From Microcaldota archaeon (GTDB taxonomy: Archaea; Micrarchaeota; Micrarchaeia; Micrarchaeales; Micrarchaeaceae), in assembly GCA_021797575.1 (NCBI GenBank), contig JAJZZN010000003.1:1-64000 (forward strand): a stretch of DNA of 64,000 bases. Reading direction: 5' to 3'. Positions 56,008-58,769 of the stretch are shown here, piece after piece. The translations under genes were made by a program, and so were the position numbers. Positions within the stretch are counted from its first letter, which is position 1. Each line of letters begins with the position of its first letter. The notes beneath the pieces were generated by a model, which saw only the letters and a program-made list of their open reading frames with translations, was not told where the DNA came from and ran no database searches.

Positions 56008-57147
56008 ATGCATATGAAGCTGCTGCTGACCCAAGCCAACCTGACATTGATGGGCGGTGCCGAGCGCGTACTGCTTAAGATAGCGCAGCATTACAATGCA
56101 AAGATATACACAGCAGAATACGATAAGAAATCAACATTCCCGGAATTCTCCGATCTGGATGTCGAAGTAATAGGCAAGCCCGTCATCACTAAGATACTCC
56201 CTTATGGGCGCGTAATGCAGGGCCTAAACTACGGGCTAAGCTTCTACAACCTGAGGATCAGCGAGGATTACGACGTAATAAATGCGCACATGGCGCCAAG
56301 CCACTGGGCAAGGCACAAGAATGAGCGGGTGATATGGTACTGCCATACGCCCCTCAGGGACATATACGACCTGTACCAGTACAGGCTGTCCCTTAAAAAA
56401 ACATATCAGAAGCCCGTGCACATACTCGGCGCCAAGGGCGTAAGGAGGATAGACAAGAAGGTAGTGAAGGACATAGAATTCATCTTCGCAAACAGCTCCA
56501 ATACCGAGTCCAGGATACGCAAATATTACGGCAGGGAAGATGCAGAAGTGCTCAATGGAGGCATAGACTACAAGCAGTACAAGAACCTCGGCGATGGCAA
56601 GTACTTCTTCTATCCTTCCAGGATATCGCAGAACAAGAGGCAGGAATACGCCATACGCGCCTTCTCCATATTCAAGAGGAAGACAAAGGGCTACAAGCTC
56701 GTGCTGTCGGGCGCGGTATCCAAGGACGATTTCTACGCTTCATACTACAACAGGATCAAGGAGGAAGCGAAAAAGGTAGGGGATGTGCAGATAATAGAGA
56801 ACCCGAGCGATTCAAAGCAGAGGAGCCTTTTCGCCCATTCTTCGGCGGTTCTGTACACCCCGATAAACGAGGACTACGGCCTGGTGCCATTGGAAGCTAT
56901 GGCAAGCGGCAAGCCGGTGATATCAGTCAACGAAGGCGGGCCAAGGGATACAATAATCAACGGAAAGACAGGATTCCTTGTGAATGATGAGAGGGAAATG
57001 GCAGCCAAAATGCAGATGCTTGTCGAAAATCCGCAGCTCTCAAAGGACTTAGGCAAGGCCGGCATAGAAAGGGTAAGAAAAAGCTACTCCTGGGACAGGT
57101 TCTTCAAGATATTTGATAAGAGGGCCAGGCAAGTCGCCAAGCTGTAG
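56008..57147 (+). CDS. Family 4 glycosyltransferase
   Basis: 379 residues, GT-B fold. Two marks are clear: YPSRISQNKRQEYAIRAF at the start of the nucleotide-sugar domain (about 205) and the conserved E-x7-E region NEDYGLVPLEAMASGKPVIS, followed by NEGGPRDTI. Such enzymes transfer a sugar from a nucleotide-sugar donor; with AglB in the window, a role in glycan assembly for surface proteins is possible. ATG 56014 is an alternative start. A TATA-like AAAATATTAATA lies 30 bases upstream. Specificity unknown. Confidence 0.87.
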   Translation: MHMKLLLTQANLTLMGGAERVLLKIAQHYNAKIYTAEYDKKSTFPEFSDLDVEVIGKPVITKILPYGRVMQGLNYGLSFYNLRISEDYDVINAHMAPSHWARHKNERVIWYCHTPLRDIYDLYQYRLSLKKTYQKPVHILGAKGVRRIDKKVVKDIEFIFANSSNTESRIRKYYGREDAEVLNGGIDYKQYKNLGDGKYFFYPSRISQNKRQEYAIRAFSIFKRKTKGYKLVLSGAVSKDDFYASYYNRIKEEAKKVGDVQIIENPSDSKQRSLFAHSSAVLYTPINEDYGLVPLEAMASGKPVISVNEGGPRDTIINGKTGFLVNDEREMAAKMQMLVENPQLSKDLGKAGIERVRKSYSWDRFFKIFDKRARQVAKL

Positions 57148-57150
57148 CAA

Positions 57151-57459
57151 TTACTTTGATTTTGGAGTGATTGATATTACATATTTGGATATGACTCCTG
57201 CAGCGTATGCGAGCACCTTCTTTATGTTTGCCTCGGTATTGGTGCCTGTGCATATCATCTTGCCATTCTTGAAAAGTATTATCACGGCTTTCGGCTCAGC
57301 CACCTTAAATATAGCACCAGGAAACTGCTCCGGCTCGTAGTCCACGGCCTTGACGTTCTTCGACAGGGCATAGAGGTCTATCTCGGCATGCAACGCCGCG
57401 CTGACAACTATATTCTCTATCTTTATGACAGGGTTGTTGAGGCTTTTTGTCGAGGGCAT
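57151..57459 (-). CDS. Half-size TATA-binding protein (single TBP repeat)
   Basis: 102 residues that match exactly one repeat of TBP. IKIENIVVSAALHAEIDLYA is the first strand and helix; YEPEQFPGAIFKVAEPKAVI and ILFKNGKMICTGTNTE follow. Phe46 (in EQFPG) and Phe63 (in ILF) stand where the intercalating Phe pair of a TBP repeat lies. Normal archaeal TBP is about 180 residues with two repeats; here the frame stops after one, and no second repeat is nearby. It might bind TATA as a dimer or act as a modulator. The visible ATG may not be the start: GGTGAT at 57502-57507 points to an ACG at 57496-57498. Confidence 0.8.
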   Translation of the reverse strand: MPSTKSLNNPVIKIENIVVSAALHAEIDLYALSKNVKAVDYEPEQFPGAIFKVAEPKAVIILFKNGKMICTGTNTEANIKKVLAYAAGVISKYVISITPKSK

Positions 57460-57495
57460 TTCCTTTGCCTGGGCTGTTTTTGCGGTCTTTGCTGC

Positions 57496-57542
57496 CGTTA
57501 AATCACCATCAATGATATAATGCTATACAACCTTTATATATG
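57496..57542 (-). promoter_or_regulatory. Promoter and ribosome site of the TBP-like gene
   Basis: The minus strand has CATATATAAAGG (57532-57542), then 25-30 bases later GGTGAT (57502-57507), followed by TTA and ACG-GCA-GCA-AAG in frame with the TBP repeat. If ACG starts translation the product gains 13 residues beginning like many proteins here (MAAK). Confidence 0.45.
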
Positions 57543-57647: not shown

Positions 57648-58769
57648 GTGTATCATACGACTAAATCTGTATGCATTATAGGTGCGGGTACTATAGGCTT
57701 GATATTAGCAAAGACGCTGGCAGCCTCCGGCATAGAAGTTGACGTATACGAATCCAAGTCAAATGTTTCGGATGGTTCAGAAAAGGCCTCAGGAATAATA
57801 TCAAAAATAGGCCTTGATCGCATCGGTGTTGAATACAAAAAGTCCATAGTCAACAAGCTCAGCGGCGCAATACTGCATTCCGGGAGCAGGAAGCTGAGGA
57901 TAAAGTCAAATGATACAAAGGCGTATGTTATAGATAGGGGCAAGTATGTAGAAGAATGTGCCTCAGAGGCTAAGCGTGAAGGTGCCAAGATATATACCAA
58001 TACGCGATTCAGCCCAAACGACCTAATAAGGTTGAAGGACCAATATGATGCAATAGTCGGGGCAGATGGCGCTGTATCAACGGTTGCAAAGACCTTTTCA
58101 TTTCCGCCAATAGGTTCATATGTCCTTACGTACAAGGCTGAATACTCTGGAGCAGATGTCGGGGAGACCGATGTTGTAGACCTTTTTTTTGACAATACGA
58201 TGATGCACAACTTCTTCGGATGGAGCGTGCCCTATAGCCATGATATAATGGAACTGGGTCTCGGCATCGATTCCGCATACAAGAAGAACAGCAAAGCGGT
58301 TTTTGATAGGTTCGTCAAGAAGCCTGAGATTGCAGAAATGCTGAAATCATCCAATATGGTGTCTGGGCATGCCAGCATGATACCGTTGGAGACAAGGCAG
58401 AAGACCGTGATCGGGAACGTACTTCTTGTTGGTGACGCGGCCGGCCAGACAAAAGCAACTACAGGAGGCGGAATAGTATTCGGCTCAGGATGTGCAAGCA
58501 TAGCTGCAGACTCTATAACAAGATACATTAATCAGGGCATCCCATTATCAAGATACGAGCGTGCTTGGAGAAGGAAATACGGGTTTGAGATGTTCCTCCA
58601 TAAGAAGATACACAATCTATATTCATCATCAAGCCCAGCCCGGATGGACCGCATATTCAATGTAGTGAAGGCGATTGGGGGTGAGAAATTCCTCGGCTCA
58701 TACGGCGACATGGACAGGCCCAGTATAATGCTCAAAAGGCTCATATTCCGCGGGCTCATAAGCGACTGA
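57648..58769 (+). CDS. Second geranylgeranyl reductase-like flavoprotein
   Basis: 373 residues beginning at a GTG. The FAD-binding N-terminus VCIIGAGTIGLILAKTLAAS has the GxGxxG motif with an acidic end at VYESKS. The second FAD motif LLVGDAAGQTKATTGGGIVF matches the GDAAG-x-x-x-P/T-x-x-GGG signature of geranylgeranyl reductases. A TATA element (CATATTTAAATCC) lies 45 bases upstream. It shares the fold of, but is only distantly related to, the paralogue at 21554. Substrates may be archaeal lipids or a menaquinone side chain. Confidence 0.8.
   Translation: MYHTTKSVCIIGAGTIGLILAKTLAASGIEVDVYESKSNVSDGSEKASGIISKIGLDRIGVEYKKSIVNKLSGAILHSGSRKLRIKSNDTKAYVIDRGKYVEECASEAKREGAKIYTNTRFSPNDLIRLKDQYDAIVGADGAVSTVAKTFSFPPIGSYVLTYKAEYSGADVGETDVVDLFFDNTMMHNFFGWSVPYSHDIMELGLGIDSAYKKNSKAVFDRFVKKPEIAEMLKSSNMVSGHASMIPLETRQKTVIGNVLLVGDAAGQTKATTGGGIVFGSGCASIAADSITRYINQGIPLSRYERAWRRKYGFEMFLHKKIHNLYSSSSPARMDRIFNVVKAIGGEKFLGSYGDMDRPSIMLKRLIFRGLISD

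Follow-up and report, generated by a model that had tools for sequence, protein, structure and literature searches.

Half-size TATA-binding proteins as a probable replacement for the two-repeat TBP in a family of Micrarchaeota

The gene tbpB, found in the 64,000-nucleotide stretch of micrarchaeal DNA analysed here (the window), encodes TBP-B (B). Together with a second half-size TATA-binding protein, A, it probably (we put it at about 0.7) replaces the two-repeat TBP in this Micrarchaeota family, the half-size proteins pairing as dimers that act with TFB. The tbpB product is 115 aa long when read from an ACG codon at 57498 and 102 aa from an ATG at 57459, and residue numbers such as F46 and F63 are counted from this ATG. 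The locus has the following features:

57151..57498, reverse strand: half-TBP gene tbpB, ACG start to stop, with a single PF00352 repeat
57181..57426, reverse strand: TBP repeat forming one lobe, with two Phe, EPEQFPG stirrup and NGK turn (PF00352 and AlphaFold2 model)
57457..57459, reverse strand: alternative in-frame ATG, lacking a Shine-Dalgarno (SD) sequence
57496..57498, reverse strand: probable ACG initiation codon of tbpB (conserved SD and ACG)
57504..57507, reverse strand: SD sequence GGTG of tbpB, 5 nt before the ACG, a spacing conserved in nearly all (from sequence)
57533..57540, reverse strand: TATA box TATATAAA of tbpB, 34 nt before the ACG (from sequence)
56008..57147, forward strand: convergent neighbouring glycosyltransferase (Pfam Glycos_transf_1)
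57648..58769, forward strand: divergent FAD-dependent oxidoreductase, a conserved neighbour of tbpB outside the system (Pfam DAO/FAD_binding_3)

The initial annotation had aligned the protein to one TBP repeat only, with both phenylalanines (46 and 63), EPEQFPG and NGKM retained, and this description holds in every particular. The protein matches PF00352 once with 82.3 bits (cut-off 22.9; E 2e-23) over profile positions 2–85 of 85, and carries YEPEQFPG, ILFKNGKMICTG and both Phe. It falls far under the cut-off of the NCBIfam full-length TBP models and, with one repeat in 102–115 aa, does not contain two tandem repeats in one chain. An AlphaFold2 model of the product (mean pLDDT 88.8) superimposes on half of human TBP 1cdw with an rmsd of 0.9 Å over 80 columns (TMq 0.75) and on M. 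jannaschii TBP 2z8u with a TMq of 0.77. The DNA-contact residues N16, F46, F63, K67 and T71 are all present in the lobe, and across 40 single-lobe proteins the positions N16, V18, Y41-E42-P43, Q45-F46-P47-G48, F63 and G66 are invariant, with K67 nearly so. In established TBP structures, residues at these positions face the DNA or form the stirrup of the lobe.

A PF00352 search of the window's genome (G000; 659 kb in 34 contigs, 77% complete) recovered exactly two sites, namely tbpB and a second single-repeat gene, A, which encodes 119 aa on another contig (G000:C30) beside rpl21e (ribosomal protein L21e) and fibrillarin. Neither gene is fused to another repeat, and A and B are 47% identical, about as distant as the two lobes of classical TBPs (42–56%). 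Two of the checks proposed at the outset have outcomes here: the same search found no two-repeat TBP in this assembly and did find a second half gene. Ca. Micrarchaeum sp. A_DKE, whose chromosome is closed (G262, NZ_CP060530.1, 989,838 bp; G302 has the same coordinates), likewise encodes the same two half-TBPs and no two-repeat TBP, so missing contigs do not explain the absence of the latter. As judged from gene content, the half-TBPs would have to serve as TBP, since neither the organism's own assembly nor the closed A_DKE genome offers any other.

This arrangement extends well beyond the window's organism. We surveyed 301 genomes of the phylum and drew completeness tallies from genomes of ≥90% completeness, designating the window's family f1 and its sister family f2. 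At least two half-TBP genes, unlinked and single-repeat, occur in 30/32 such f1 genomes, and the f2 genomes encode either one half-TBP (11/19) or two (8/19), with A as the only copy in G124 (single contig, 93% complete) and G125 (three contigs, 97%). In families f14–f16 and f18–f27 all loci read are single-repeat and a genome carries between one and three such genes, and in f3–f5 and f13 all loci read comprise two repeats in one frame of ~200 aa. The Diapherotrites group (19 genomes) has mostly single-repeat TBPs of 88–124 aa, some with long tails, and includes fused TBPs in G312 and G313. Half-TBPs are thus the usual or only TBP across Micrarchaeota and Diapherotrites, and many good genomes have A alone. 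Because whole lineages of relatives hold half-TBPs only, the two-repeat TBP is dispensable. The intact, free-standing repeat originally recognised in tbpB is matched by single-repeat orthologues across the family, and the circumstance that would have told against it, homologues that are always two-repeat, does not obtain in this family or in most of the phylum. A classical two-lobe TBP in G254 (C43:2733-3251, L003, 185 aa) was left out of account: that genome also has both halves, and the two-lobe gene is probably a contaminant from another archaeon, or else was transferred.

A and B form two orthologous groups. In the lobe tree B is a separate clade with members from both f1 and f2 (support 0.99), and the genomic contexts of the two never cross, A lying next to rpl21e in 126/146 loci and B next to the FAD oxidoreductase in 48/65. 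From the tree and the counts, A appears to be the older copy, universal in this order. B would be its paralogue, which probably arose before f1 and f2 diverged and later disappeared from some f2 members.

A second property of B is its start codon. The initial annotation had begun the gene at 57498, an ACG codon that at first seemed wrong; it is probably the real start, lying 5 nt behind the GGTG motif in a conserved arrangement. Of the f1 B genes, 34 were listed, and 25 of them have an SD followed by ACG; the arrangement is clear in 24, and the other has TGTG. A further gene, L163, also has ACG but a weaker SD. Among 37 B loci there are 26 matches to SD-ACN (G270 contributes two), all of which are ACG and never ACA, ACC or ACT, and eight SD-ACG B genes have no in-frame ATG, GTG or TTG before the lobe. 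The remaining f1 B genes and the f2 B genes start with ATG, and A genes start with ATG, GTG or TTG, with one clear exception carrying an SD and ACG (L074 in G203). Across 387 kb of the window's genome there are 11 in-frame SD-ACG against 49 SD-ATG, and most of the SD-ACG lie deep inside frames; by this count the genome does not use SD-ACG generally. The conserved ACG behind an SD suggests that translation of B is weak and may be kept low or regulated. A rare start codon is known to limit synthesis in E. coli infC, which begins with AUU. Like infC, the tbpB gene pairs a good SD with a rare start codon that is conserved; it differs in that the codon is ACG and the gene is archaeal and encodes a basal transcription factor, with regulation of tbpB being our proposal. 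For the neighbouring FAD oxidoreductase (window 57648-57671, forward strand), too, the start may be an ACG at 57657 (SD AGGTG) or a GTG inside the SD; G246 has ATG at the corresponding position.

We posit that two lobes would pair edge to edge in the manner of the N- and C-lobes of a normal TBP, as an A-A homodimer or, where B is present, an A-B heterodimer. Such a dimer would bend TATA DNA by four phenylalanines, two per subunit, and recruit a conventional TFB, which would give the complex its direction; B would be translated from its conserved ACG, probably in low or regulated amounts. That this lobe type can pair is indicated by natural two-lobe fusions of it, which are predicted to adopt a normal saddle (pLDDT 92, TM 0.87–0.88 to 1mp9). 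The partner appears intact, as all 19 genomes checked encode one or more TFBs with two cyclin repeats, and the single TFB gene of the window's genome (L197) encodes a Zn ribbon and two cyclin repeats. From the invariant contact residues, the intact TFB and the saddle predicted for fused lobes we infer that organisms with A alone make A-A dimers and that the window's organism forms A-A dimers, A-B dimers or both. Binding and bending of TATA DNA and recruitment of TFB by the half-TBPs are likewise expected. A dimeric TBP, as originally suggested, is therefore still the leading reading, with the amendment that two distinct half genes had been missed; given these two different genes, heterodimer and homodimer are equally likely for tbpB. 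The TFBs of f1 and f2 also have a basic N-terminal extension of ~60–80 residues before the Zn ribbon, which other families lack.

The most serious competing explanation, less probable than joint replacement but deserving weight, is that the A homodimer is the basal TBP and B an accessory paralogue, acting as a homodimer at a subset of promoters or as a modulator that pairs with A, with its expression held low by the ACG. Basal transcription does without B in several f2 genomes, as they have only A (the single-contig G124 and the three-contig G125 among them), and the conserved weak start is essentially confined to B, both of which fit an accessory role. This is countered by the retention of B in nearly all near-complete f1 genomes and by its preservation of every DNA-contact and stirrup residue.

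The distance between the TATA box of tbpB and its ACG is similar to that of a genome-wide TATA-like motif. An expectation-maximisation (EM) motif recovered genome-wide from the window's genome is palindromic (AAAnn-TWTWWAWA-nnTTT). The palindromic motif was also recovered from a neo-two-lobe genome; other controls were underpowered or gave different motifs, and Halorubrum as a control had too few TATA sites. A symmetric-anchor test returned symmetry in G000, A_DKE and G003 and asymmetry in the A-only G124 and in the classical pool, with small samples (n=13–31) in the tandem sets. It is suggestive that a symmetric dimer would permit such a palindromic motif, which the controls do not confine to half-TBP genomes. 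Promoter symmetry was accordingly dropped as proof of a symmetric TBP, given the same motif in the neo-two-lobe genome and the mixed anchor test, and no part of our reading depends on it.

The two-repeat TBPs of Micrarchaeota bear on the history of the single lobe. Those of f3–f5, f13 and others share the lobe type and phylum of the half-TBPs and differ from them in joining two lobes in one chain. In f3–f5 and f13 their two lobes are 57–76% identical to each other (48% in G069), compared with 42–56% in classical TBPs. Approximately unbiased (AU) tests were run on an unrooted lobe tree of 61 sequences. A tree constrained to group micrarchaeal N-lobes with classical N-lobes, and C-lobes with C-lobes, is worse by 79 log units and can be rejected (AU p=0.002); the test does not reject a tree that unites every micrarchaeal and diapherotrite lobe in a single clade (AU p=0.64). 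Because their repeats are near-identical and do not match the classical N/C division, the two-repeat proteins of some of these families look as if they were re-fused from single lobes or homogenised by gene conversion. G121 (f2) carries, where a contig ends (L128:1486-1896, reverse strand), a partial tandem copy of a half-TBP, consisting of 30 identical residues, a linker and a full lobe, which is possibly a fresh two-lobe fusion and could also be a contig-end artefact.

Taken further, these patterns allow a broader scenario that we regard as tentative, a little short of even odds: a basal system built on a half-TBP dimer would be ancestral to Micrarchaeota and Diapherotrites, the two-repeat TBP would have been re-invented by several fusions, and one lineage would have divided the job between two paralogues, one of them throttled by its ACG start. 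The system might even survive from before the duplication. This last idea, that these phyla retained a pre-duplication single-repeat TBP instead of losing one repeat, is unlikely on present evidence. It draws on the result that the lobes of the two groups together may make up a clade separate from the classical N- and C-lobes, on an unrooted tree that permits a root on the branch to the micrarchaeal and diapherotrite lobes and is also compatible with a reduction to one lobe, and on the depth of half-TBPs within both groups. However, in fast tests that placed single lobes among classical N- or C-lobes, p was 0.05–0.06, so that these placements are not firmly excluded. A two-repeat TBP is present in other archaea and in eukaryotes, and given this distribution loss is the simpler history unless these phyla branch first; among DPANN the comparison covered Micrarchaeota and the Diapherotrites group.

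A role for tbpB in some other nucleic-acid task, akin to the TBP-like domains of RNase HIII and DNA glycosylases, is very improbable: such enzymes do contain TBP folds, but in sequence and structure alike the protein most resembles true TBP, TFB is present and the genome has no other TBP. That the gene is a fragment or pseudogene, or that a frameshift or assembly error conceals a second repeat next door (the latter named by the initial annotation as one way in which its reading could fail), is rejected, as the frame is intact, the flanking sequence is occupied by the glycosyltransferase and FAD oxidoreductase and holds no adjoining TBP repeat, the protein recurs at 98–100% identity in two other assemblies, and a single-repeat gene is found in nearly all genera of the family, including in closed or single-contig genomes.

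Classical archaeal TBPs (M. jannaschii 2z8u, P. woesei 1ais/1pcz and S. acidocaldarius 1mp9, with 38–39% lobe identity in structural alignments) share with the half-TBPs the fold, the Phe pair, the EPEQFPG stirrup and a TFB partner gene. Half-TBPs are unlike them in having one repeat per protein, encoded by two genes in the window's organism and by one in many relatives. Brindefalk et al. are said to have described single-lobe (monopartite) TBP-domain proteins in archaea in 2013. Single-lobe archaeal TBP-domain proteins are also mentioned in passing by Ravarani et al. (2020); these resemble the half-TBPs as free-standing lobes in archaea, and the mention itself comes without taxa, a check for the absence of a two-lobe TBP, an A/B pair, re-fused forms or an ACG start. 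Our search of the open-licence literature found no paper in which a half-TBP is the sole TBP and none that deals with the A/B pair, re-fused TBPs or the ACG start. Within that literature, the single-lobe archaeal TBP is thus already known, a precedent missed by the initial annotation, and these four aspects appear to be new.

The two-fold pseudo-symmetry of TBP is a standard example of a fused homodimer, the free half of which has been thought lost or barely mentioned. Here, lineages with small and partly closed genomes live on free halves, in one- and two-gene forms, beside relatives in which the halves have apparently been re-fused. The step from homodimer to fusion, and the way in which a symmetric TBP would obtain direction from TFB, thereby become testable in living organisms, among them A_DKE, for which a co-culture exists and RNA reads have been published under BioSamples SAMN15702898 and SAMN15702859 (PMC8975820).

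Further variation in lobe number and tails was observed in the Diapherotrites group. G312 has a 726-aa open frame with four successive TBP repeats (C8:9538-10695) and additionally encodes a two-repeat TBP in a 377-aa frame, and two half-TBPs of this group (L312 and L318) carry long Lys/Ala-rich N-terminal extensions that resemble histone tails.
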